Below, piece by piece: positions 32,164-46,524 of a stretch of DNA of 55,130 nt. The notes beneath the pieces were generated by a model. The model was not told where the DNA came from and did no database searches. It was given only the letters and a program-made list of their open reading frames with translations. The position numbers and the translations under genes are program-made. Source of the stretch: Borreliella garinii (GTDB taxonomy: Bacteria > Spirochaetota > Spirochaetia > JABEVK01). The stretch is taken from the NCBI GenBank assembly GCA_020720765.1, contig DYOB01000008.1, positions 1 to 55,130 of the forward strand. Reading direction: 5' to 3'. Within the stretch, counting starts at the first letter, position 1, and each line of letters opens with the position of its first letter.

Positions 32164-33290
32164 TAAGAACCTACTATTCTGAAGACGAATTTTGGATTCC
32201 CCTTCAATGGTTTGCTGCCGAAGACGAGGGACGAACTGAAGATCCGACGGAACAAAAGATCCGAAAGGCGCGGGAGGAGGGGAAGGTTGCGAAGACCCCC
32301 GACCTCACCTCGTCTGTCGTTCTCTTGCTCCCTATCGTTTTAATAGCATCAGCCTCCGGGTTCTTCTTTTCAACCATGCAGGAAATGGTCGGTTTCTACC
32401 TATCCAATGCCGTCACCCAGGCCCTGCGCGGGCCTTTATTTGAACCAGAAGTTTTTTTTAATTATTTCTTAAAACTCGCCCTCCCTGTCCTTATCGTGGC
32501 CTTGGTCGCGGCGGTTCTCGGTAATGTAATACAGGTGGGTTTTATGTTTACGACAAAAGCCATCATGCCTGACTTTACGAAAATTGTCCCGAAAATCGGT
32601 AAATTTATACAGAAGACTCTTTTCTCTGCAGAAGCTTTTTTTAACCTTGCGAAGAGCATTCTCAAAGTTATCGTTATTGCGGTGATAGCCTGGATCAATA
32701 TTACGGGCGAGTGGCCCAAGTTTGCCCACCTGGCTGATCTACCCTTGCCCAAAGGCATGGAGCTTGTCGGATGGACTTCTATGAACATTATCATTCAGAG
32801 TGCCTTCGCGCTTCTTTTGATGTCCATACCTGATTTTATGTTCCAACAGTGGAGACACAAAGAGAGCTTGATGATGAGTAAGGAAGAAATTAAGGAAGAA
32901 CGGAAGCAGAGCGAAGGCGATCCGCTTGTTAAGGGGCGGCTTCGTGAGAAGATGCGCCAGATTCTACGACAGAACCTTGAAAAAACCATTCCCCAGGCTA
33001 CCGTGATTATCACAAACCCGACCCACTTTGCCTGCGCTCTTGAATGGAATGAAATGATAATGGCTGCGCCGACACTGACGGCCAAGGGTGAAGACCTAAT
33101 GGCCCAGAAAATCAGGGAACTAGCTAACGAGAACGGTGTGCCTCTTGTTGAAAACCGTCCACTCGCCAGAAGCCTTTACTATTCAGTTAATATCGGGGAC
33201 CAGATACCCGAGGAATACTGGGAACTTGTGGTACGCATTCTGGCTGAAATTCAGAAAGTCAACTCTACCCAAGAGAGGTCGGTAGTATGA
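32160..33290 (+). CDS. flhB: FlhB, export substrate-specificity switch
   Basis: A 376-residue protein with four membrane helices and a cytoplasmic domain. The N-terminal DEGRTEDPTEQKIRKAREEG motif and the self-cleavage site NPTH (Asn286-Pro287) are intact. Cleavage there and contact with FliK switch export from rod/hook to filament proteins. An extra 20 residues (MIRTYYSEDEFWIPLQWFAA) precede the usual start. It overlaps fliR and flhA by 4 nt each. Confidence 0.96.
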   Translation: MIRTYYSEDEFWIPLQWFAAEDEGRTEDPTEQKIRKAREEGKVAKTPDLTSSVVLLLPIVLIASASGFFFSTMQEMVGFYLSNAVTQALRGPLFEPEVFFNYFLKLALPVLIVALVAAVLGNVIQVGFMFTTKAIMPDFTKIVPKIGKFIQKTLFSAEAFFNLAKSILKVIVIAVIAWINITGEWPKFAHLADLPLPKGMELVGWTSMNIIIQSAFALLLMSIPDFMFQQWRHKESLMMSKEEIKEERKQSEGDPLVKGRLREKMRQILRQNLEKTIPQATVIITNPTHFACALEWNEMIMAAPTLTAKGEDLMAQKIRELANENGVPLVENRPLARSLYYSVNIGDQIPEEYWELVVRILAEIQKVNSTQERSVV

Positions 33291-35389
33291 GCGATATAGT
33301 CACAAGCATTCGGACAAGTTTATTAAAGAGCCCGGGGGACTTCGGACTCGCCGGTGGTGTGCTTGTTGTGATTGCCATGCTGCTTATCCCGCTACCCACT
33401 TTCCTGCTCGATTTTCTGATGACCCTGAACCTACTTTTCGCAGTCTTAATTATTCTCGTTGTGATATTTTCCCGCAGGGCTATAGATTTCTCAAGTTTTC
33501 CTACGGTGCTTTTAGTTGTCACTATCTACGGCCTTGCCTTGAACATCAGTTCCACCCGTTTGATTCTCGCCCAGGGGAGTGAATTCGACGGCGCTTTGAT
33601 CCGGGCCTTCAGTAAGTTCGTGATTGGTAGCGGCGGGATCCAGGGCTTGGTCATCGGTCTTATCATTTTTATTATCATCATGGTTGTTCAGTTTGTGGTG
33701 ATCACAAAGGGTGCGACGCGTATCAGCGAGGTGGGTGCCAGGTTTATGCTGGACTCCATGCCGGGCGAACAGATGAATATCGACGGGGCCTACAGCTCGG
33801 GTTCCATCACCGAAGAAGAGTATAAAAGAAAGAAACTCGAGCTCGAAATGAAGAAAGATTTTTACGGGGCCATGGACGGAGCCTCGAAATTCGTTTCAGG
33901 AAACGTTAAGGCTGGTCTCTTTATCACTTTTGTAAACCTTATAGGGGGTTTTCTGGTAGGCATGCTGATCCACGGGGAAACCTTTAACATCGCCGTGGAC
34001 ACGTATCTGGGTTTGACCATCGGTGATGGACTTGTCAGTCAGTTTCCGGCACTCTTGATTTCCACAGCATCCGGTCTGATTGTCGCACGTACAACATCTG
34101 ATTCCAATATCGGGGAGGAAATCAAGCGGCAGTTTACAGCCACGGCGAATATCTACTGGATCAGTTCCGCTTTCCTCGGACTTATGGCCTTTCTGCCGGG
34201 ATTCCCCGGGTACATTATGCTTCCCATGGCAGCTGTACTCGCTTACCTCGCTTACCAACTTTCCAAAAAAGAACAGGTGAAAGACACCCAGAAGGCGCAG
34301 GCCGCCAGCAAGCCCCAAACCGCAGGACGCGAAGCGACAAAGGAAGCTGGAACTCCAGCCCCCCTGGATCCGCTAAGTCTTGAGCTTGGTTACGGACTTA
34401 TTCCACTGGTGGATAAGGACCAGGGTGCCGAACTCCTGGAAAGAATCACCAGGATACGCAGGGAAACCGCCCTTGATCTGGGTCTTGCTGTTCCGCCTAT
34501 CAGGATTATCGATAATATGCGGCTGGAACCATCGGATTATAGTTTCAAGATAAAAGGAAGCGAGGTGGGCCGCGGGGCCATAAAAATGGGCCACTACCTC
34601 GCCATAAACCCGGGGAGCGAACTCGATGGAATCCCTGGAGAAAAGACAAAGGACCCTGCTTTCGGACTGCCGGCTGTTTGGTTGACAGAAGAGAACCGCG
34701 ACAAGGCCGAGCGCAAAGGGGTGACAGTTGTGGATTCCCCGAGCATCATCGCCACTCACCTTACCGAGATTATCAAGCACCATGCTTCGGAGATTCTAGG
34801 ACGACAAGAAACCCAGGCTCTCATAGCAGCCATCAAAACAGATTACGGCGCCGTGGTTGAAGACGTTCAAAAGCACTTCGGCCTAGGGGAACTTCAAAAA
34901 ATCTTTCAAATTCTCCTTCGCGAACAAGTATCCATCCGCAACCTTGTAACAATTCTTGAAACCATCAGCGACTACGGCGGAGTGACCAAGGACGTCTTTT
35001 TCCTGGCTGAAAAGGTCAGACAGGGTCTTGCACGGCAGATCAGCCAGCAGTACGCCGACGATGAAAAAGTTATCAGGGCTATGACGATAGAACCAGGACT
35101 TGAACAAAAAATTATTCAAAGCCGTGATGACAGCGGAGGTGTTCTTATTGCCGCTTTGGAACCGCACCTTCAGAGAGCCTGGGTAAATGCTGTAGCAAAC
35201 GCCTTCCAATCTATCCAAGGTAAGGGATTTTATCCACTTATCCTTTGTAGCGAGGCGGCAAGAGCCCTGGTCAAGGCTACAACAGAACGAGAACTTCCAG
35301 AACTGACAGTGTTGAGCGTTCCTGAAATAGCCCAAGGGTATAGGGTTGAATCGTTAGGAGAAATCCGCGTGGAGGAAAAGAATGAGTGA
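33287..35389 (+). CDS. flhA: FlhA, flagellar export ring protein
   Basis: A 700-residue protein. It has eight N-terminal membrane helices (to about 330) with LPTFLLDFLMTLNLLFAVLI, the FHIPEP-type loop region EVGARFMLDSMPGEQMNIDG and GALIRAFSKFVIGSG, then a linker and a large cytoplasmic domain that docks chaperone-substrate complexes (LELGYGLIPLVDKDQGAELL, IKMGHYLAINPG, VVDSPSIIATHLTEIIKHHA, LSVPEIAQGYRVESLG). It overlaps flhF by 8 nt. Confidence 0.96.
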   Translation: MSDIVTSIRTSLLKSPGDFGLAGGVLVVIAMLLIPLPTFLLDFLMTLNLLFAVLIILVVIFSRRAIDFSSFPTVLLVVTIYGLALNISSTRLILAQGSEFDGALIRAFSKFVIGSGGIQGLVIGLIIFIIIMVVQFVVITKGATRISEVGARFMLDSMPGEQMNIDGAYSSGSITEEEYKRKKLELEMKKDFYGAMDGASKFVSGNVKAGLFITFVNLIGGFLVGMLIHGETFNIAVDTYLGLTIGDGLVSQFPALLISTASGLIVARTTSDSNIGEEIKRQFTATANIYWISSAFLGLMAFLPGFPGYIMLPMAAVLAYLAYQLSKKEQVKDTQKAQAASKPQTAGREATKEAGTPAPLDPLSLELGYGLIPLVDKDQGAELLERITRIRRETALDLGLAVPPIRIIDNMRLEPSDYSFKIKGSEVGRGAIKMGHYLAINPGSELDGIPGEKTKDPAFGLPAVWLTEENRDKAERKGVTVVDSPSIIATHLTEIIKHHASEILGRQETQALIAAIKTDYGAVVEDVQKHFGLGELQKIFQILLREQVSIRNLVTILETISDYGGVTKDVFFLAEKVRQGLARQISQQYADDEKVIRAMTIEPGLEQKIIQSRDDSGGVLIAALEPHLQRAWVNAVANAFQSIQGKGFYPLILCSEAARALVKATTERELPELTVLSVPEIAQGYRVESLGEIRVEEKNE

Positions 35390-36563
35390 TTACTTCGCCG
35401 TGACCGGTGCGAATTACCAGGATGCTTATGAAAAGGCGAGAAAAATTTATGGTGCAGATGTTCAGGTGACGGGTCATAGAACGTATTCTAGCGGCGGGTT
35501 TCTAGGATTCTTTTCCAAAGATGTTTGCGAACTTTTTGGAATGATCTTACCGAGGAATCATAACGCTAAAAAAGATTTTGAAACAAAGAAAAATGAAATC
35601 CTCGAGAATATAAAAGCCCCAGCCCATTCGGGTGTGACCGAGCAACAGCTGATGAAAGCCATTAATACCGCCATGGCGGAAAACATGCAAAATCTTAAAC
35701 AGTCGTTGAAAGAAGGCCCTGCACCCTTACCCAACCAGAAGAAACTGGAAGAAATTCTCAGGGAAAATGATTTCACTCCCAACTACACAAAAAACCTTAT
35801 AGAAGATCTCAAGCGCTCCCTCACTGTAAGCGATTGGAACAGTATGCGAACGGTCGAAGAAGCCGCACTGCTGTGGATAGGGAAAACCATCGAGGTCAGC
35901 CCCGACCAGGAAAATGGTAGGCCGGATGTGCATGTTTTGGTCGGGCCGACGGGTGTCGGTAAAACAACGACCATAGCCAAACTTGCTTACCACCTGGGTA
36001 ATTTCCAGTCGAAAATTGGGCATAAAAAATTGGCCCTGATCAATATCGATGACTATCGTGTGATGGCGGAGATGAGTCTGAAAAAATATGGGGACATCAT
36101 GCATGCTCCTGTTTTTTCGCCCAATAAACCCGAAGACCTCAGCCGTGACGTTGCGCTTTCTGAGGACTGCGACCATATCCTTATCGATACTGCGGGTAGA
36201 AATCCCAAGGATTTTACCAGGCTCCTCGAGAACAGGCAAATGCTAATTGCCGTACCCAGAAAATACGAGTGTATCCTTACCATCAGTGCCGTCACCAAGA
36301 CCAAGGACCTTGAAACCGTTGTAAAACAATTTGAATCCTACGAAGCCCGGGATGTCATTATCACAAAACTTGATGAAACATCCGCAGTAGGAAACGTTAT
36401 CAGTGTTCTGTGGGAACACTCCAAGAGAATACGCTATATCACCACTGGGCAGGTTGTGCCCACAGATTTTTCTCCCGCTTCACATATAAAACTCATGCAG
36501 TACCTCCAGGGTTTTTCCGACGATATAATGAGAGGACTATCAAAGGAGACAGCACATGGCTGA
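35382..36563 (+). CDS. flhF: FlhF, SRP-like GTPase for flagellar placement
   Basis: A 393-residue protein. An N-terminal B domain (SDYFAVTGANYQDAYEKARK, about 1-110) precedes the N domain and the G domain with P-loop [43 protein letters not shown] and TKLDETSAVGNVISVLWE. FlhF recruits early basal-body parts to the pole; in spirochaetes basal bodies sit near both cell ends. Overlaps flhG by 8 nt. Confidence 0.95.
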   Translation: MSDYFAVTGANYQDAYEKARKIYGADVQVTGHRTYSSGGFLGFFSKDVCELFGMILPRNHNAKKDFETKKNEILENIKAPAHSGVTEQQLMKAINTAMAENMQNLKQSLKEGPAPLPNQKKLEEILRENDFTPNYTKNLIEDLKRSLTVSDWNSMRTVEEAALLWIGKTIEVSPDQENGRPDVHVLVGPTGVGKTTTIAKLAYHLGNFQSKIGHKKLALINIDDYRVMAEMSLKKYGDIMHAPVFSPNKPEDLSRDVALSEDCDHILIDTAGRNPKDFTRLLENRQMLIAVPRKYECILTISAVTKTKDLETVVKQFESYEARDVIITKLDETSAVGNVISVLWEHSKRIRYITTGQVVPTDFSPASHIKLMQYLQGFSDDIMRGLSKETAHG

Positions 36564-37425
36564 CCAGGCTGAAAAACTGAGGGAACTGATGGGGTATACC
36601 GAAGATAAACCCCATTCGGATAAAAAGACTCGAATTATTGCGGTCACTTCGGGGAAGGGCGGGGTTGGAAAATCAAATATGGCTATCAATATAGCCCTGG
36701 GTTTTGCCAAATTGGGTAGATCCGTGATCGTGATGGACGCCGACCTGGGTCTGGCAAACGTCAACGTTATTTTAGGTGTTATTCCGAGGTTCAACCTCTA
36801 CCATATGATGCGACAGCAGAAAACCATGAAGGAAATTCTAACAGATACCGGGTACGGCATCCAGATCGTAGCGGGTGCTTCGGGGTTTTCCAAGATAGCC
36901 AACCTCAGCGAGGAAGAGCGGCGTTCTTTTATCCGGGAACTCGCCACCCTGGGCGATGCTGATATTTTGATTATCGATACAAGCGCCGGTGTTTCCAGCA
37001 ATGTCCTCGACTTTGTGGCCGCAGCGGACGACACGATAGTCGTGACGACCCCGGAACCCACCGCTATCACCGACGCATACGGCATCATTAAGATTATTGC
37101 CACTGAAATTAATAATCCGAGGATGGGTCTTAAACTTCTCGTCAACCGTGTAGAGGGTGTGACTGAAGGAAAGCGTGTATCCGACCGTGTCATCAACATA
37201 GCTAGCCAATTTCTCAACGTGAAGATCGATTATTTAGGGTATATCTTGGAAGATCCGCACGTACACCAGGCCGTTTTAAAACAGAAACCCTTCTTGGTCA
37301 CCGATCCCCGTTGCAAGGCCGGACTCTGCGTGATGAATATCGTCAGCAGACTGGAAAAAATCGAGTATAAAGAAGGCAGCGGAATAGGCAATTTTCTCAA
37401 CCGTCTCCTAGGTAGAATGAAATGA
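36556..37425 (+). CDS. flhG: FlhG (YlxH/FleN), MinD-like ATPase for flagellar number
   Basis: A 289-residue ParA/MinD-family ATPase. The deviant Walker A is TSGKGGVGKSNMAINIAL, with VMDADLGLANVNVILG, Walker B ILIIDTSAGVSSNVLDF and TTPEPTAITDAYGIIKI. The N-terminal DQAEKLRELM motif activates FlhF GTPase in related proteins. FlhF-FlhG set number and place of flagella. Overlaps the next gene by 4 nt. Confidence 0.95.
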   Translation: MADQAEKLRELMGYTEDKPHSDKKTRIIAVTSGKGGVGKSNMAINIALGFAKLGRSVIVMDADLGLANVNVILGVIPRFNLYHMMRQQKTMKEILTDTGYGIQIVAGASGFSKIANLSEEERRSFIRELATLGDADILIIDTSAGVSSNVLDFVAAADDTIVVTTPEPTAITDAYGIIKIIATEINNPRMGLKLLVNRVEGVTEGKRVSDRVINIASQFLNVKIDYLGYILEDPHVHQAVLKQKPFLVTDPRCKAGLCVMNIVSRLEKIEYKEGSGIGNFLNRLLGRMK

Positions 37426-37985
37426 AACTACCTCCCTTCGCCTTCACAGCCGCCTTCGGATTTTTGCTTTCCCTGATAGCGGGAATCATAGGCGGTGTGG
37501 GATTTGGTGAAGGGATTCTGAGGGGAATTCTCGTAGCAGTGGTCTTTGGTGGCGCAACTTTCGGTCTTCAAATAGTTTTTAACAGGTTTTTTCCGGAACT
37601 TTTTGAAGAAACTCCTGCTGATATCCCGACCGAAGAGAGGGGCGGTGGACGCTTCGATATGACCGTAGGTGAAACAGAAATGCCCTTCTCTGCCGATTCT
37701 GACCCGTCTGAAGACGGTTTTTCTAGGGAAATGGGTGAACCGTCCCATCCGAAAACCGAAGTTCCAACCGAGGATATCCCCGATATGGATGAATTCTCGA
37801 GTCAAAACGACCTGCCCGACATGCCCTCGATGAGTGATTCGTACCACGGCGGCGGAGATAGAAGAAATTTTTCTGATCTGGGTAGCATGGACAGCAAGGA
37901 TAATGTATTATTAGAAGGAATGGATGAGGATCCGACTATTCTTGCGAAAGCGGTTCAGTCGGTCCTTAAAAAGGACAACGATTAG
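37422..37985 (+). CDS. Membrane protein with long acidic cytoplasmic tail (unknown)
   Basis: A 187-residue protein not assigned to a named family. Two Gly-rich membrane helices (about 5-28 and 30-52) are followed by a 130-residue acidic, Pro/Ser/Met-rich, probably disordered tail, ending in the conserved-looking helix [18 protein letters not shown]. It overlaps flhG by 4 nt and precedes the flagellar sigma gene by 8 nt. The short C-terminal helix ([11 protein letters not shown]) could be a docking peptide; a motility role is inferred only from its place. Confidence 0.8.
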
Positions 37986-38790: not shown

Positions 38791-40734
38791 ATGGTTTCTC
38801 TTGACGATATTCAGAATTTCATGAAAAAAAAAGTCGCCGAAGACAGAGAGGTGAAATCTGTCTCCGTCAGCGGCGAATCCCTTGATGCGGCATTAAAATC
38901 AGCGAGTCTCGAGCTAGGCGTTCCCGTCCTCCGTGTCGAATACGACATTATCCAAAAGGGAAGTTCAGGTTTTCTGGGTATGGGGAAGAAGGGCTGGTCA
39001 CTTATAGCTTATCCATTAGCGAAGAAGATAAAGGTCAAGGTCGGTCCATCCGCAGAAGGACTCACCATGGAAGGAATCAGCCAGGAAGATACCCAACCTA
39101 AAGACAGGGACGGAAGAGCCTTTGTCAGACTTTGGGCCGATGGTGTCTACGTAAAGGTTGAAAAACCCATCGGAAGAGGTCATGAAATCGAAGAGGATGA
39201 GGTGAACGCCTTGCTTCAGGACAGGGCTGTCCACGAGGTGAACCACCAAGCCTTAAAAGGGACCGTGAAACTCGCTACCGGCAACTATCAAAAAGTAGGT
39301 GAATTTATCCATAATTCTGCCGCTGATGCGAGCGTCACTGCCTACCTCGACGATTCCGACATGCAGGCACTTATCTTTGCCAATGCACCCGGTCCCGGCG
39401 GAGCCGATCTCTCTATGGAAGAGCTGGAACATTTTATGAGGAATTTCGGCATAGTTCACGGCATCAACGACGAGAGGCTGGAAGCCTTTATAGATACTCC
39501 AAAATACAACGAAAAATATCTCGTGGCTGAGGGAAGCAAGCCTGTGAATGGAAAGGATGCGCGTCTGCTTTATAACTTCGAGATAAAAAAAACTTACAAA
39601 CCCAACGAAACCGAGGGGAAGGTCGACTTTAAATCCCTGAACTCGATCCATAACGTTGTAAAGGGTGAAGAGGTTGCCATCAAGGAACCCGCTGAGAAAG
39701 GGCTGGCAGGTAGAACCGTTACAGGCCGGATGCTTCCAGCAAAAGACGGTAAAGATGCAAATTTCGAACTAAGCAATGGAGTTTACCTTTCAAAAGACGG
39801 CTTAAAAGTTCTTGCGGCTGTGGATGGTCAAGTCATTTTAAGTGGCGGAAAAATCGTTGTGGAAACAGTCCTGACCATACCTGGAAATGTGAACCTCGCC
39901 AGCGGGGGAAATATCAGTGTTTTGGGAAGTGTCATAGTAAAAGGCGAGGTGGAAGACGGTTTCAGCATTCAAGCCGGAGGTAATATCGAGGTTATGGGCT
40001 CTGTGGGTCGCGACTGCATGATAGAAACCCCGGGGGACGTCATTCTCCATGGCGGTATCAACGGCGGTGAAAAAGGTTTTATCAAGTCCGGTGGAAGTGT
40101 ATGGTCGAGGTTTATCCAACACGCCCGCGTGACTTCCCAGGGTTTTGTCATTGTCTCCGATGGTATTATGAACAGCGATGTCGACGCTGAAAAAAAAGTT
40201 CTCTGCAAGGGGCGGAAAGCTAAAATTATCGGAGGACATATTCGCGCAGGTGACGAGATCAACGCTGCGAGTTTCGGAGGAAACGGGACTACACTGGAAG
40301 TGGGGTACGACCCAAAAATTAAAGAAGAACTCGATGACTTGGTTGAAAAACGGGAAGTGCTTGTGAAAAGCAAGGAAGAAAAGGACCTCAACTTAGCCGG
40401 CCTGATGAAAATCCTCCGTGTGAGAAAAAATCTTCCGCCCGAAAAGGAAAAAGTCCTCTTGGAAACACGCAACCAAATACAAGAATTAACCGAACAGATT
40501 TCTTCAATGACAGAGGAGATTGATGCTAAAACCCAGTACCTGGCAAGTTTTGAGACTAAGGGGCGGATAGCGGCGAGTGGTGAAATCCAGGCTGGTGTTA
40601 AGATTATTATCAGGGGGGTTGAGTTTGAGGCAAATAGGGATTACCGAGGTGTTTCCTTCGCCCTGGATAACAACCTGATACGGACACAGAAGTACGAGGC
40701 ATTCGATGAAGAAGAAATTTCAAGGAAAAACTGA
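38791..40734 (+). CDS. fapA: FapA/DUF342 polymer-like protein with N-terminal Jag_N domain
   Basis: A 647-residue protein. The N-terminus (about 22-72) looks like a Jag_N domain: SVSGESLDAALKSASLELGV and GSSGFLGMGKKGWSLIAYP. Then comes a FapA N-terminal domain and a right-handed beta-helix built of Gly-rich turns (about 365-500, for example GNVNLASGGNISVLGSVIVK and MIETPGDVILHGGINGG), followed by a coiled coil (about 510-590) and a C-terminal strand region. DUF342/FapA proteins are linked to polar cell-pattern and motility control in some bacteria. It directly follows the sigma gene. Confidence 0.88.
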   Translation: MVSLDDIQNFMKKKVAEDREVKSVSVSGESLDAALKSASLELGVPVLRVEYDIIQKGSSGFLGMGKKGWSLIAYPLAKKIKVKVGPSAEGLTMEGISQEDTQPKDRDGRAFVRLWADGVYVKVEKPIGRGHEIEEDEVNALLQDRAVHEVNHQALKGTVKLATGNYQKVGEFIHNSAADASVTAYLDDSDMQALIFANAPGPGGADLSMEELEHFMRNFGIVHGINDERLEAFIDTPKYNEKYLVAEGSKPVNGKDARLLYNFEIKKTYKPNETEGKVDFKSLNSIHNVVKGEEVAIKEPAEKGLAGRTVTGRMLPAKDGKDANFELSNGVYLSKDGLKVLAAVDGQVILSGGKIVVETVLTIPGNVNLASGGNISVLGSVIVKGEVEDGFSIQAGGNIEVMGSVGRDCMIETPGDVILHGGINGGEKGFIKSGGSVWSRFIQHARVTSQGFVIVSDGIMNSDVDAEKKVLCKGRKAKIIGGHIRAGDEINAASFGGNGTTLEVGYDPKIKEELDDLVEKREVLVKSKEEKDLNLAGLMKILRVRKNLPPEKEKVLLETRNQIQELTEQISSMTEEIDAKTQYLASFETKGRIAASGEIQAGVKIIIRGVEFEANRDYRGVSFALDNNLIRTQKYEAFDEEEISRKN

Positions 40735-41069
40735 TGGCGCTCGCACCCATTGACCTCCAGACCCTGTTCCTTCATATGGACCAGCCGGGTAAAGAACAGG
40801 CCATTACCCGGGAATCCGTTCTGCATACCCAAAACATCCAGGCGGGAAAATTGATCCAAAAGGCCGAATTGGCACAGACCGAGGTGACGAAAACAGCGGA
40901 AGTCGACGACGACAATATGAAAATCCACGATAAAGAGACACAAGACCAAACACAGAATTCCGAAGAGAAAAAAGAATCTAAAGAAGAAGAGGCGGAGCTT
41001 GAGAAAAAACCTGTTTCCACACAATTCAAGGACGACCGCTTGGGTTCCCGAGTGGATTTGACGGGTTAA
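40734..41069 (+). CDS. Small highly charged hypothetical protein
   Basis: A 111-residue protein with no recognised domain, signal peptide or membrane helix. The first 25 residues (ALAPIDLQTLFLHMDQPGKE) look ordered. The rest is Glu/Lys/Gln-rich and probably disordered or coiled coil, ending DDRLGSRVDLTG. It overlaps fapA and the next gene by one base each, so it is translated with them. The end motif, with Gly, Arg, Val and Asp, is similar in style to small proteins in other spirochaete fla operons. Confidence 0.7.
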   Translation: MALAPIDLQTLFLHMDQPGKEQAITRESVLHTQNIQAGKLIQKAELAQTEVTKTAEVDDDNMKIHDKETQDQTQNSEEKKESKEEEAELEKKPVSTQFKDDRLGSRVDLTG

Positions 41070-41515
41070 TGATGGAGTGGCTGCTTTTTATCCTATTGTC
41101 CACCGGTGTCCACGCTGGGTTTTTCTTTTATTTCCGCGGCCTTATTAGAAAAGATCTGACTTCCAAACTGAGAATCGAGGAAATGAAAAAGGAAATGGGT
41201 TTATTAGTAGCTGAGATCAATGGTACTGCTGATAGGAATATCACCATACTTGAAGACCGTATTTTAAAGCTGGAAGATTTGGTACGCAAAGCCGACCAGC
41301 GTATCCGCCTTATGGATGGAAAGAGGGAACCGGTTCAGGACCAGGTGATGAAGTATAGGGAGGCTGTGAAACAACCTGCCGTTAAGGAAGAACCAGCTGA
41401 CTTGATCTTGAAACTCTTTAAGCAGGGAGCTTCTCCCGATGCCATAGCCCACGAAGTAGGTCTCAGTATTTCCGAAGTCAACCTCATTATGAAACTGCAG
41501 GGGGTGGAACTTTGA
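41069..41515 (+). CDS. SwrB-like (DUF6115-type) membrane protein
   Basis: A 148-residue bitopic protein with an N-terminal helix (about 3-22, EWLLFILLSTGVHAGFFFYF), a coiled coil (about 28-85) and a C-terminal helix-turn-helix-like segment LFKQGASPDAIAHEVGLSIS followed by EVNLIMKLQGVEL. The same layout and length are seen in Bacillus SwrB, whose gene lies at the end of the fla/che operon just after sigD and which aids export-gate activation. The homology is inferred. It overlaps its upstream neighbour by 1 nt and the Hsp70 gene by 4 nt. Confidence 0.75.
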   Translation: MMEWLLFILLSTGVHAGFFFYFRGLIRKDLTSKLRIEEMKKEMGLLVAEINGTADRNITILEDRILKLEDLVRKADQRIRLMDGKREPVQDQVMKYREAVKQPAVKEEPADLILKLFKQGASPDAIAHEVGLSISEVNLIMKLQGVEL

Positions 41516-43158
41516 AAACTTTGGGAATCGATTTAGGCACAACAAATTCTCTGATTGGATTATTTTTAAAAGATAAAATTTCCTTAATTCCCAATGAAAG
41601 GGGAAAATGGTCGACACCTTCGATAGTGGCTTTTCGGGCTGGCGAGGTGCTTATCGGGGAGACGGCAAAAAACCAGTCGGTAATCAACCCTTCGGGTACC
41701 GTTTCCCAGGTGAAAAGGATGATGGGAACCGATCACGTTTACAACATCCAGGGAAAAGCGTACTCCCCGTCACAGGTTTCTTCTCAAATTTTGACCTATC
41801 TGAGAAAGTGTGCGGAAACTTACCTCGATGAAAAAATAGAAAGCGCGGTCATCACTGTTCCGGCCTATTTTAGCGAACCCCAGAGGAGGGACACGCTTAA
41901 GGCCGCAGAATTCGCTGGTTTAACCACTTCCCGGCTTATCAACGAGCCAACATCCGCGGCCTTGGCCTGGGCGTTTGAAAAGAGGCTTGAAGAAGGGACT
42001 TTTATCGTTTATGACCTCGGGGGCGGTACCTTCGACGTCAGTCTGGTAAGGGTTCGAGGCGATGATTACAGGGTTTTGGCGACAGCAGGAGATACCCGAT
42101 TGGGCGGTTTGGATTTTGACCAGATGATTTACAGTAGGGCTCTTGAACACTTTGAAAAAGAGATTGGTACTATAACGGATCCTTCCCTGCTCCAACAAAT
42201 ACGCCTTCTCTCCGAGGTGTGTAAGATCGACCTCTCAACCCAAAAATCCTCGGTACTATCTCTGCCTTTTGCGGGAAATAAAAGTTCTACCCATCTTCAA
42301 TTTTCCTTGACGAGGGAAGAGTGGGAAAGTTTGCTCAAACCCTGGGTAGAAAAAACCCTAAGGCTTTGTGATCAGGTTCTTGATAGCGCTGAAATCCTCA
42401 AGCCCCAACTAACCGACCTTGTTTTTTCAGGTGGCAGTACTAGGATTCCGCTGATCAAAAAACGTGTTGAAGAATGGGCAGGCATGAGAATAGCCGCTGG
42501 ATTTAATCCCGAGGAGGCTGTCTGCCGGGGAGCGGCGCAATTTGCTTCGTTAAAGACCCAAGGTCGAAAAGAAAAGATTTATGATGTTACGGCCTTCGAC
42601 CTTGGCGTGGAAATCGAGGGAGGGGATTTCTTTCCGCTCATGGGTGCTAATTCACCTCTTCCAGCCAATGTTACAAGGCAGTTTACCACGGTAGCCGATG
42701 AACAGGCGATTGTGGAGATCCACGTCCAGCAGAGGCATTCGACTGACGTCTCTTCCCTGGGAAAGTTTATTCTGGGTGGCATCCAGCCTCAAACTAAGGG
42801 TATACCGAGGATCAACGTACGTTTCAGTCTGAATCAAGACGGCATTCTCAGCGTCCAGGCACAGGATACCGCATCGGGAGCCTCTCAAGAATTAATGATT
42901 AAGAACCTGCCGGCAGCGGGTCATGGTCACGGTCCAAGTTGGGAGGATCTTGAACGTTTGATCCAAGCGGGAAGTGAAATCTCTTGGGAGCGCATGCCGC
43001 TGAGCCAGTTAAAGTGGAAAAAAGACTGGGTGACTTTTCTTACAGAGGCGAAAAGTGTTTTTTTAAGGAAAGAGACTGCCCAGCTAGAGAGTTCGATCTT
43101 CGCCCTCGAAGGGCTTTTGGGTGAACTTCGGCTGAGCCCGGCCGCAACGAATGTATGA
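41512..43158 (+). CDS. HscC-like Hsp70 chaperone with shortened lid
   Basis: A 548-residue DnaK paralogue (DnaK is about 610-640). The nucleotide-binding domain is intact: GIDLGTTNSLIGLFLKDK, AVITVPAYFSEPQRRDTLKA, AGLTTSRLINEPTSAALAWA, VYDLGGGTFDVSLVRV, GGSTRIPLIKKRVEEW. The substrate domain (about 365-475) ends in GILSVQAQDTASG; the lid is short and divergent, without the acidic EEVD-like tail. HscC of E. coli has a similar size. It starts with TTG overlapping the upstream stop (TTGA) and overlaps the J-protein gene by 4 nt, so the two are likely partners. Confidence 0.88.
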   Translation: MKTLGIDLGTTNSLIGLFLKDKISLIPNERGKWSTPSIVAFRAGEVLIGETAKNQSVINPSGTVSQVKRMMGTDHVYNIQGKAYSPSQVSSQILTYLRKCAETYLDEKIESAVITVPAYFSEPQRRDTLKAAEFAGLTTSRLINEPTSAALAWAFEKRLEEGTFIVYDLGGGTFDVSLVRVRGDDYRVLATAGDTRLGGLDFDQMIYSRALEHFEKEIGTITDPSLLQQIRLLSEVCKIDLSTQKSSVLSLPFAGNKSSTHLQFSLTREEWESLLKPWVEKTLRLCDQVLDSAEILKPQLTDLVFSGGSTRIPLIKKRVEEWAGMRIAAGFNPEEAVCRGAAQFASLKTQGRKEKIYDVTAFDLGVEIEGGDFFPLMGANSPLPANVTRQFTTVADEQAIVEIHVQQRHSTDVSSLGKFILGGIQPQTKGIPRINVRFSLNQDGILSVQAQDTASGASQELMIKNLPAAGHGHGPSWEDLERLIQAGSEISWERMPLSQLKWKKDWVTFLTEAKSVFLRKETAQLESSIFALEGLLGELRLSPAATNV

Positions 43159-43784
43159 CGCGTGAAGACGCTTTAGCGGTCTTGCAGCTAGCTCCCGGAG
43201 CATCTCCGGAACAGATTAAAAAACAATACCGCAACCTAGCCAGGCTCTACCACCCGGATCTCAGTAAAAATCCACACTCTTCCTTACTTTTTTCTCGTCT
43301 CAGGGACGCTTACGAAGCTTTAAGCGCCTTGTGGGTTTCCAAGCGTGTTTACGAAAAACCAGTTGCGAACCCCGTCCCAATCATCACTCAAATGGCTTAC
43401 TGGGGAAAAGTTCTAAAAGAATCGTCGGAGACCCATCAGCGCCTTCAAGCTGTCAGACGTTTGGGGCGCATAGGCGGTGCAGGCTCCTGGATTTGGCTAA
43501 AATCGGCTCTGAAAGACCCCAATGAAAGCGTTAGAAACGAAACTGTGAGAACCCTCGGTATTCTCGACCTGCGCCAAGGACTGGAGTATCTCGGGACAAT
43601 TTTTCTTAAAGAAACTTCTTCAGTAAAGATGACTGTTCTTGAGCAGGCAGCGGATAAAAACTTTGATGGTGGATGGAATTCGTTTTATTTTCTAGCGATT
43701 CAGGATGCCAACCCATTTGTCCGCTGGAAAGCTCGTCAGTTAAAAACCACAGTAGAAAAAAAAACGGCATGCTCTGGACGTTAA
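43155..43784 (+). CDS. J-domain protein with C-terminal HEAT-like repeats
   Basis: A 209-residue protein. Residues 2-62 form a J domain with the catalytic HPD (LARLYHPDLS) between helices EQIKKQYRNLARLY and FSRLRDAYEALS. It lacks the Gly/Phe, zinc and client-binding domains of DnaJ. Residues about 95-205 form HEAT-like helical pairs: RLQAVRRLGRIGGAGSWIWL, ALKDPNESVRNETVRTLGIL and IQDANPFVRWKARQLK. Such a repeat could pick the client or the place for the neighbouring Hsp70. Coupled by a 4-nt overlap. Confidence 0.82.
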   Translation: MTREDALAVLQLAPGASPEQIKKQYRNLARLYHPDLSKNPHSSLLFSRLRDAYEALSALWVSKRVYEKPVANPVPIITQMAYWGKVLKESSETHQRLQAVRRLGRIGGAGSWIWLKSALKDPNESVRNETVRTLGILDLRQGLEYLGTIFLKETSSVKMTVLEQAADKNFDGGWNSFYFLAIQDANPFVRWKARQLKTTVEKKTACSGR

Positions 43785-43857: not shown

Positions 43858-44700
43858 ATGGCGAAAAATGCCACACATGGCTACAATCAATTCATGCGGC
43901 ATTTTTTTACCAACCTTGTTAAGAGTCGAAAAGTCAGTACTGCCTACACCGAACTGACGTTTTCCTGGCCCCAGGGGCTAAGACGGCCTCTACCCGGTCA
44001 GTTTCTCACCTTTCGTATCCATCCCACCCACAATCCTTTCCTCAGGCGTCCATTCAGCCTTTCAAGTTGGAATGAGACCGAATCGCTGGCTTCTGTCCTT
44101 ATACAGGAGCGCGGACCAGGGTCTTCCGCACTTTGTGCTTTGAAACCAGGTTCTGGGCTCGATATTTTAGGACCCAGGGGCTTCTCTTTCCCTTTTAAGC
44201 ACCAAGAGGGTGATCATAGACCCTTTTTACTTGTAGGAGGTGGAATCGGGACCGGTCCTATGCTTTTCGCGGCACAGTACCTGAATGAGAAACAACAGAA
44301 AATCCGACTCTGCCTCGGATTCCGCGACATCAACATGATTCCCTCGTGGGAATGGCCCGAATCTTACCATGCCGCCCTTGCGGCGGAGAATTTAACCCAA
44401 GAGACAGAAAGGGTTCAGCCGGGAAGGGTTCTGGATCTTGTAGAAAAAACCTTTTTAAAAGAAGGTGGCAGGGAAGTCTGGGCTTGCGGTCCGACACCCA
44501 TGTTAAAAGCAGTATCGGACTGGGCATCGGAAAAGGGTGTGCCCTGTTTCGTCTTGGTGGAGGAAATGATGGCGTGCGGCGTGGGGGCTTGTATGGGGTG
44601 CGCCGTTCCCGTCAACGATGGAAGGGGCTACCTCCGGTCCTGCACAGAAGGTCCGGTTTTCGACGCAAGGCTTATAGACTGGAGCAAAGCATGGACTTGA
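43858..44700 (+). CDS. pyrK: PyrK, dihydroorotate dehydrogenase electron-transfer subunit
   Basis: A 280-residue FAD/[2Fe-2S] protein that passes electrons from PyrD to NAD. Seen: the ferredoxin-reductase FAD-binding fold with NPFLRRPFSLSS, the NAD-binding GGGIGTGPMLFAA, WACGPTPMLKAV, and a C-terminal cluster of four Cys (EEMMACGVGACMGCAVPV and a Cys in LRSCTEGP). The start is ATG 43858 without clear Shine-Dalgarno; ATG 43894 (MRHFFTNL) is a possible alternative. It is next to pyrD, as in class 1B systems. Confidence 0.94.
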   Translation: MAKNATHGYNQFMRHFFTNLVKSRKVSTAYTELTFSWPQGLRRPLPGQFLTFRIHPTHNPFLRRPFSLSSWNETESLASVLIQERGPGSSALCALKPGSGLDILGPRGFSFPFKHQEGDHRPFLLVGGGIGTGPMLFAAQYLNEKQQKIRLCLGFRDINMIPSWEWPESYHAALAAENLTQETERVQPGRVLDLVEKTFLKEGGREVWACGPTPMLKAVSDWASEKGVPCFVLVEEMMACGVGACMGCAVPVNDGRGYLRSCTEGPVFDARLIDWSKAWT

Positions 44701-45608
44701 GTACCACGATTAAAGGAAAAACCTTACCCAACCCGGTTGGAGTGGCTAGTGGGGTTTTCGGTTACGCTAAAGAGTATGAACTCCTGACGGATCTTGGGGG
44801 TTTGGGGGCCATTTACACCAAGGCCATCACACCTTTACCCCGCAAAGGAAATCCCTCCCCGAGGATGGCTGAAACTCGGCTGGGAATGCTCAACAGTATA
44901 GGCTTAGCCAATGTCGGACTTGAAGTTTTTAAGGAACAAAAATTACCTTTCCTAGTTTCAACCAAGGTTCCCATTATCGTCAACGTGGCAGGAAGCACCG
45001 AGGACGATTACGTCCAGGTCGTCTCGGGTCTGGAGGAAAGTGAGGGTATCTGGGGCTTTGAAATCAATGTCAGCTGTCCTAACGTCAACCAGGGGGGGCA
45101 GACTTTTGGCGCCGACCCTAAGGTTCTCTCAAGTCTTATAAAACTCCTCAGGCCTCACACAAAGAAACCCCTACTTGTAAAACTTTCACCTAATACCTCG
45201 GACATCACGGAGCTTGCCTTAGCAGCTGAAAGCGAGGGGGCGGATGCATTGACAGCGATCAATACCCTCAAGGGTATGGTTATCGATATTTATAAAAAAC
45301 GTAGCGCAGTTAAGCGCGGTGTCAGCGGTTTTTCGGGGCCCGCCATCCTTCCTGTAGGTGTTGCCGCTGTCTACTCCATAGCACAGGCTGTCAAGATTCC
45401 CGTGGTCGGGGTAGGGGGAATTTCACGATGGGAGGACGCCGTTCAGTATCTCTTAGCCGGAGCGTGCGCGGTTCAGATCGGGAGCGCCTTATTTGCAGAA
45501 CCCGAACTTCCTTCCAAGATTCTTTCAGGAATCATAGCTTACGCACAGGACAATCATTTCCAGACCCTAAATGATTTTCACCGGGCTTTTATAAAGCCGC
45601 AAACATGA
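44691..45608 (+). CDS. pyrD: PyrD, class 1B dihydroorotate dehydrogenase
   Basis: A 305-residue FMN enzyme that oxidises dihydroorotate to orotate in pyrimidine synthesis. Seen: TLPNPVGVASGVFGY, AIYTKAITPLPRKGNP, the class 1 catalytic Cys in FEINVSCPNV, LLVKLSPNTSDI, SGFSGPAILPVGVAAVY and VVGVGGISRWEDAVQYL. Cys rather than Ser as base plus the PyrK neighbour mark class 1B. ATG 44691 lies inside the pyrK 3' end. A G7 run is present near 45092-45098 inside the gene. Confidence 0.95.
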   Translation: MDLSTTIKGKTLPNPVGVASGVFGYAKEYELLTDLGGLGAIYTKAITPLPRKGNPSPRMAETRLGMLNSIGLANVGLEVFKEQKLPFLVSTKVPIIVNVAGSTEDDYVQVVSGLEESEGIWGFEINVSCPNVNQGGQTFGADPKVLSSLIKLLRPHTKKPLLVKLSPNTSDITELALAAESEGADALTAINTLKGMVIDIYKKRSAVKRGVSGFSGPAILPVGVAAVYSIAQAVKIPVVGVGGISRWEDAVQYLLAGACAVQIGSALFAEPELPSKILSGIIAYAQDNHFQTLNDFHRAFIKPQT

Positions 45609-45967
45609 GTAAAACCAATGGGACATTGTTTATCAGGAATTGGGAAATCTTCGCGAGGGTGGGCATCCTTCCCGAAGAGTTAGTGGCTCCCCAGTTGCTT
45701 AGACTGACACTGAAGATGCGGCTGAATACCGGGCCTGCCTCGAGAACAGGGAATATTCAGGACACTTTGGATTATGCCGGTGTGTATTCCTTGGTTAGCG
45801 ATAAAATATGCGGGAAGCACTGGGGTCTGATCGAAACCCTTGCAGAGGAAATTGCAACGTGGATAATCCAATACAAATTTGTTAGCTCGGTTAAGGTGGA
45901 AATAGAGAAACCCAACGCACTCCCAGGTACCGCAACTGCAGGAATCCGAATTAGGAGAACGAAATGA
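45605..45967 (+). CDS. folB: FolB, dihydroneopterin aldolase
   Basis: A 120-residue T-fold enzyme that makes 6-hydroxymethyl-dihydropterin in folate synthesis. Seen: [18 protein letters not shown], the catalytic segment [12 protein letters not shown] and [14 protein letters not shown], then [19 protein letters not shown]. Overlaps pyrD and folE by 4 nt each. Confidence 0.92.
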
Positions 45968-46524
45968 ACCAAGATCGTGTGGCAGGACTTATCAGGGAAC
46001 TTTTGGTGGAATTGGGCGAAGACCCGGATAGACAGGGTCTTTTAAAAACACCCGAAAGGGTGGCTAAGGCTTGGGAGTTCTTGACTTCGGGGTATAGAAT
46101 CAACCCCGAAGCGGTACTCAACGAGGCATTATTTGCCAGCCACGGTAAAGATATGATTATCGTCAAGGATATCGAAATATACAGCCTGTGCGAGCACCAC
46201 CTTTTACCCATTTTGGGGACTTGTCATATCGGCTATATTCCCGGCGACCACGTGGTGGGGGTGAGCAAGATAGCCCGCATCGCTGATATTTACGCCCGCA
46301 GACTCCAGATCCAGGAGAGGTTGACACGCCAGATAGCCCAGGCTGTGGAACAGGCGAGCCATGCCTTGGGTGTTGGTGTCGTTATCGAAGCACGGCACCT
46401 GTGTATGATGATGAGGGGGGTTCAGAAACAAAATTCAGTAATGACGACAAGTACGGTTTTAGGGAGATTTAGGACGGACCCGAAAACACGAGAAGAGTTT
46501 ATGACGCTGATCCGTCATCATTGA
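45964..46524 (+). CDS. folE: FolE, GTP cyclohydrolase I
   Basis: A 186-residue zinc enzyme that turns GTP into dihydroneopterin triphosphate, the first step of folate synthesis. Zinc ligands are visible in [12 protein letters not shown] (Cys and His) and [13 protein letters not shown] (Cys). [20 protein letters not shown] and [20 protein letters not shown] are also typical. Its 3' end overlaps the convergent PilZ gene by 26 bp. It is the last gene of the long plus-strand chain. Confidence 0.96.

Follow-up and report, generated by a model that had tools for sequence, protein, structure and literature searches.

The Hsp70/J-HEAT gene pair and its products

The window, i.e. the whole 55,130-nucleotide stretch of DNA analysed in this work, carries a flagellar operon which runs into a gene for an Hsp70 and a gene for a small protein composed of a J domain and a HEAT array (J-HEAT). 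The genes in and around the pair are listed below.

33287..37425, + strand: FlhA, FlhF and FlhG
37422..37985, + strand: membrane protein in the FlgV position (assigned by position only, between FlhG and FliA; PMC11607428)
37994..38782, + strand: FliA-type sigma factor
38791..40734, + strand: FapA (Pfam)
40734..41069, + strand: small protein, a constant neighbour, in the YjfB slot of the published superoperon (by position only; PMC11607428)
41069..41515, + strand: TM-HTH protein (DUF2802 / SwrB-like), the constant neighbour upstream of the Hsp70
41512..43158, + strand: flagellar-operon Hsp70, 548 aa, TTG start; ATPase domain (NBD) ~1-354, peptide-binding SBD-beta ~355-473, short lid ~474-548
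43155..43784, + strand: J-HEAT protein, 209 aa; J domain with HPD at 33-35 and helices to ~64, ~four HEAT repeats at 76-207
43858..45608, + strand: dihydroorotate dehydrogenase subunits, starting 73 nt past the J-HEAT stop

Upstream of the pair the window encodes FliK, a FliN-type protein, FliO, FliP, FliR, FlhB, FlhA, FlhF, FlhG, sigma28 and FapA, and the gene order matches the superoperon order FlhF-FlhG-FlgV-sigma28-FapA-YjfB-TM/HTH (PMC11607428; YjfB and FlgV placed by position only). The two frame overlaps claimed by the sequence-only reading were found at both junctions, each being 4 nt long: TTGA at 41512-41515, where the TTG start of the Hsp70 gene lies over the stop of the SwrB-like gene, and ATGA at 43155-43158, where the J-HEAT start lies over the Hsp70 stop. 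The segment downstream (43858-46524) contains a gene for a dihydroorotate dehydrogenase electron-transfer subunit (Pfam) followed by a PyrD-like ORF, and also two folate-gene-like ORFs (FolB and FolE, recognised by eye only). The source genome encodes one other full Hsp70, a canonical DnaK on contig C25, and yielded five further J-domain matches.

The window Hsp70 matched Pfam PF00012 over both NBD and SBD (E=2.5e-128, 429 bits, cut-off 20.6). Its lid extends 80 residues past the position of DnaK 507, compared with 132 in E. coli DnaK and 83 in HscC; among the flagellar Hsp70s this length is 74-119 residues, and 18-30 in the Borrelia-type proteins. In the phylogenetic tree 33 flagellar Hsp70s grouped together as a single clade (SH-aLRT 100). 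Outside it stood the DnaKs encoded by these genomes and the only three reference proteins, E. coli DnaK, HscA and HscC. The earlier description of the protein as HscC-like thus holds for its length and short lid but not for its kinship: membership in HscC was ruled out by the tree, in which the sole HscC sits on a long branch. Judged from sequence, the window Hsp70 belongs to one spirochaete clade that takes in the Borrelia BB0264-type Hsp70. The flagellar Hsp70 branches exceeded those of the DnaKs of the same genomes several-fold in length.

Functions have been assigned to individual residues of DnaK. The catalytic residues D8, K70, E171, D194, T199 and D201 (DnaK numbering) were intact in 57/57 full-length flagellar Hsp70s, the window protein included, and N170, T173 and D393, which contact the J domain, were nearly invariant. 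In the interdomain linker, which is VLLLD in DnaK, mostly polar residues surround one hydrophobic position and D393.

In Pfam, DnaJ (4.7e-13) and HEAT_2 (1e-7) were the sole matches of J-HEAT past the cut-offs, and neither the zinc finger nor the C-terminal client-binding domain of DnaJ class A/B was found, in line with the claim that this J protein has no DnaJ client domains. With its HPD motif and J fold it fits DnaJ class C, in which a J domain is combined with other modules. The AlphaFold2 model, built from 17 homologues, had a mean pLDDT of 93, and consisted of the J helices 3-9, 18-32 and 42-64 and an eight-helix array at 76-207. For the J part the closest solved structure was the J domain of CbpA, at 1.1 A. 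The best PDB matches of the array were alphaRep HEAT-like proteins (~120 residues, ~3 A, E ~0.001-0.005, none <0.001); because the best E-value is only ~1e-3, the array is assigned to HEAT by fold class. At this level the C-terminal part folds as had been predicted from the sequence.

A constant site at the flagellar/chemotaxis junction

J-HEAT was searched for in 148 class-level genomes and then in 395, many of them metagenome assemblies, and full-length genes were found in ~60. A seeming HEAT match in L178 lies across a different reading frame and was disregarded. The relatives provided 107 loci, 61 with J-HEAT (108 and 62 when the window is included); the remaining ones were FapA loci of genomes without J-HEAT, Hsp70-only loci and loci cut by a contig end. 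All 62 J-HEAT loci come from class-level relatives, and in the 296-genome phylum sample every match fell in the same class, none outside it. A scan of genome contigs with a narrower J-HEAT profile gave nine loci, whose titles without exception name Spirochaetes, Spirochaetales, Spirochaetaceae or Marispirochaeta.

Wherever enough contig was available upstream (60/60 J-HEAT loci), the pair occupied the same flagellar site, with mostly overlapping reading frames; the two loci without a visible flagellar site (L143 and L144) are on short contigs. As far as the contigs reach, the upstream order in the 60 loci is FlhA-FlhF-FlhG-(FlgV)-FliA-FapA-(small protein)-SwrB-like. In the 148-genome sample FapA was present in every genome with full-length J-HEAT, and no J-HEAT was detected among the sampled genomes that lack FapA. 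These observations support the proposal of a dedicated pair tied to flagellar genes, and within the sampled genomes, in which other phyla are barely represented, it was not encountered widely in non-flagellated bacteria or in unrelated contexts. The pair is patchy: many spirochaetes with flagella, the Treponema-like family f22 among them, have neither gene, therefore it is not essential for periplasmic flagella.

It could be argued that a general stress chaperone pair is merely housed in a busy operon, since Hsp70/J pairs are common and the catalytic residues are intact. The invariable site and the absence from genomes without FapA speak against this explanation, as do the presence of a DnaK besides the flagellar Hsp70 and the much faster evolution of the latter, and we regard it as very improbable.

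In 45/62 loci cheA or cheW-cheA starts not more than ~100 nt from the J-HEAT stop, often overlapping it (one CheA and one CheW among these downstream genes were checked in Pfam). The site is therefore a junction between flagellar and chemotaxis genes and not the end of an operon, and in many loci without the pair the SwrB-like gene is directly beside cheA or cheW. The pyrimidine genes found downstream in the window, where most relatives have cheA, are an unusual feature, and the operon-end position in the window genome is a derived state. Thus, of the earlier placement at the end of a flagellar operon, the operon upstream is real, whereas its end as the common state was rejected. The suggestion that the context points to flagellar or envelope clients has to be amended in the same sense: the flagellar context stands, and the junction makes chemotaxis proteins candidate clients as well.

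The location would also suit a pair that acts as a regulator and not as a folding aid and, by binding, adjusts the amount of one partner or how active it is (for example sigma28, CheA or the SwrB-like protein). The pair has the SwrB-like gene and cheA as neighbours. In B. subtilis, flagellar type III export is activated by SwrB (PMC4526659), and a cyanobacterial DnaK1-DnaJ3 system links the pilus motors to the secretion of polysaccharide (PMC9239167). We consider such a role rather improbable.

In some genomes the Hsp70 occupies this site alone. In B. burgdorferi bb0264 is the last gene of the flgB superoperon bb0294-bb0264, and co-transcription with bb0272-bb0264 was reported (PMC11607428). 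Our literature search met bb0264 in a single paper and its preprint and returned no study treating it as a chaperone, and the superoperon paper (PMC11607428) is silent on such a role. BB0264 shares the operon site and the Hsp70 clade with the window protein (this is based on Borrelia-family sequences, equated with BB0264 by position and genome type), but the Borrelia-type Hsp70 has no J-HEAT neighbour and almost no lid (18-30 residues as opposed to 80). In the Borrelia-type loci L083, L084 and L086 nearly the whole lid is gone and J-HEAT is also absent. The L087 locus (genome G133) has a full flagellar Hsp70 with lid and no J-HEAT; here CheW and CheA lie ~1.7-2.2 kb beyond the SwrB-like gene, i.e. 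just after the Hsp70. The Borrelia-type loci and L087 indicate that the Hsp70 and J-HEAT are not always needed together.

Reduced forms of the pair

In several relatives the ATPase domain of the Hsp70 has been lost. In two genera of family f27 (L095, L096) the protein is reduced to SBD-beta and lid (~200 aa), and an HPD-containing J-HEAT follows; in L096 the start codon is 5 nt past the stop of the preceding gene, and the linker forms the N terminus of the protein (MNQLPYSIGIE). In two species of one genus of family f33 (L164, L140) an SBD-only gene is followed by a HEAT-only gene, both the ATPase and the J domain being gone. The L164 frames overlap (GTGA and TGATG), and the assembly has two N within the SBD gene; the L140 assembly contains an N gap. 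In family f5 (Candidatus Marispirochaeta and its kin) the Hsp70 of L093 is nearly intact, those of L098 and L129 have lost K70, E171 and D201 and have parts of the NBD deleted, and in L131 only a 193-aa ORF is left in the Hsp70 place. This very diverged ORF matched SBD profiles weakly (E=0.007, hhalign probability 19%); the top matches of its model (pLDDT 68, ~80 in the beta part) were DnaK SBD structures, with SBDs included in the input alignment. In L097 the Hsp70 is absent and a J-HEAT with HPD is kept. At L142:8646-9173:+, on one metagenome contig, the first ~40 NBD residues are fused in frame to the HEAT array, which stems from a recent deletion or else from faulty assembly; no conclusion is built on this locus.

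In the tree of FlhG, FliA and FapA (FastTree, with some weak forks) the reduced cases stand in separate places, and on this phylogenetic evidence at least three independent losses of the NBD or of the whole Hsp70 are likely. The NBD-less cases come for the most part from metagenome assemblies. Of eight NBD-less genomes (L142 left out), six have a single complete canonical DnaK, and a further full-length Hsp70 whose ATPase is intact was not seen in them; in the other two, both f33 assemblies, the DnaK gene is divided between contig ends. The HPD motif was present in 52/52 J proteins paired with a full-length Hsp70, and among the J-HEAT loci it was missing only in L140, L142 and L164, all three of which have lost the Hsp70 NBD.

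The reduced versions might be decaying leftovers of a dispensable pair, the SBD-only and HEAT-only genes being on the way to pseudogenes. The patchy distribution, the fusion at L142 and the strong divergence of the L131 SBD would agree with this. However, the SBD-only and HEAT-only genes have open frames with tight or overlapping start/stop junctions, and the SBD-only state is common to two genera. In addition, J and HEAT are better conserved than the adjoining dead NBD: identities between L098 and L129 were 86% for J, 65% for HEAT, 57% for SBD plus lid and 43% for the NBD (FapA, 92%), whereas in intact pairs NBD and SBD are about equally conserved. The corresponding omega values (J 0.05, HEAT 0.15, SBD plus lid 0.14, NBD 0.21) are a rough guide only, because synonymous sites are near saturation in this only close decayed pair. 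We therefore hold simple decay to be unlikely. Retention of the peptide-binding half and the HEAT array where the ATPase half was discarded suggests that these are the parts mattering most, and since the ATPase is dispensable in several lineages, the pair is not simply an ordinary Hsp70 machine.

A further explanation would have the flagellar Hsp70 always act as a stable accessory of J-HEAT, as Ssz1 does to Zuo1 in the ribosome-associated complex RAC, with the J domain driving DnaK and the SBD passing peptides to it. NBD-less genomes outside f33 keep the HPD and have DnaK as their sole plausible complete ATPase; the linker is polar, and the Borrelia-type proteins are without most of the lid. 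There is also a precedent: Ssz1 has no lid, does not hydrolyse ATP and hands nascent chains on to Ssb (PMC7083937). On the other hand, the conservation of the catalytic and J-contact residues in the full-length proteins would be unexpected if hydrolysis was unused, which leaves this explanation doubtful.

SBDs without an NBD were also noticed away from the flagellar site. L241-L249 (e.g. L245:112-1152:+, L242:1166-2089:- and L244:1854-2759:+) represent a separate spirochaete family with an N-terminal Hsp70 SBD-beta, an acidic stretch, one TM-like segment and a C-terminal LysM; the L243 variant has an OmpA domain at its end, and in L245 an SLT transglycosylase is the next gene. An ATPase-free SBD is thus used elsewhere in these genomes. 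Another Hsp70-like protein (L250:93-1907:-, genome G033; 604 aa) has a divergent C-terminal half.

Proposed role and comparison with known systems

The reading we prefer, with a probability of about one half, is that the two genes encode a chaperone pair with specific clients, belonging to the spirochaete flagellar/chemotaxis cluster, with HEAT and SBD as its core and either its own NBD or DnaK as the ATPase. The HEAT array would provide location or client docking on a flagellar or chemotaxis component, and the SBD would hold an exposed segment of the client, the two probably forming a physical complex that gives specificity. The J domain would trigger ATP hydrolysis by the pair's own NBD in most species, and by the housekeeping DnaK, presumably taking over, where this NBD was lost. 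The clients may be flagellar export/basal-body or CheA-array proteins, the SwrB-like neighbour and CheA being the first candidates. More tentatively, the ATPase-free SBD and HEAT might form an ATP-independent adaptor for flagellar/chemotaxis clients, to which the J domain, where kept, lends DnaK, so that the ATPase would be a replaceable part.

Dedicated Hsp70/J pairs as such are known, but to our knowledge none is tied this strictly to a flagellar/chemotaxis operon, and the repeated dismantling of the pair is a new finding. The natural truncation series is a ready-made experiment on which parts of an Hsp70 carry specificity, and the overlooked gene at the end of the Borrelia flgB superoperon gains a testable role. 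Sediminispirochaeta smaragdinae, which is motile and can be cultivated, has the full pair.

HscA-HscB is likewise a specialised Hsp70/J pair encoded together, but in an iron-sulphur operon, and the flagellar Hsp70s form their own clade. E. coli HscC, which works with DjlB/DjlC, resembles the flagellar Hsp70 in length and short lid; it differs in tree position, and the J proteins of its cluster are longer. The cyanobacterial DnaK1-DnaJ3 (PMC9239167) is also a dedicated pair linked to a motility machine, the type IV pilus motors; the machine is a different one, and the abstract of that study does not mention loss of the ATPase. Ssz1-Zuo1/Ssb (PMC7083937) is similar in that a J protein and an atypical Hsp70 function as a unit, in which this Hsp70 can do without its ATPase. 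RAC is, however, eukaryotic and ribosome-bound, and the domain plan of Zuo1 has no HEAT array. Its Ssz1 is non-hydrolysing, whereas full-length flagellar Hsp70s keep the catalytic residues, whose loss is confined to some lineages; what the spirochaete pair loses is the NBD and not the lid. RAC may still serve as the best working analogy for the pair, although one of its defining features, a non-hydrolysing Hsp70, is not shared by the full-length members.
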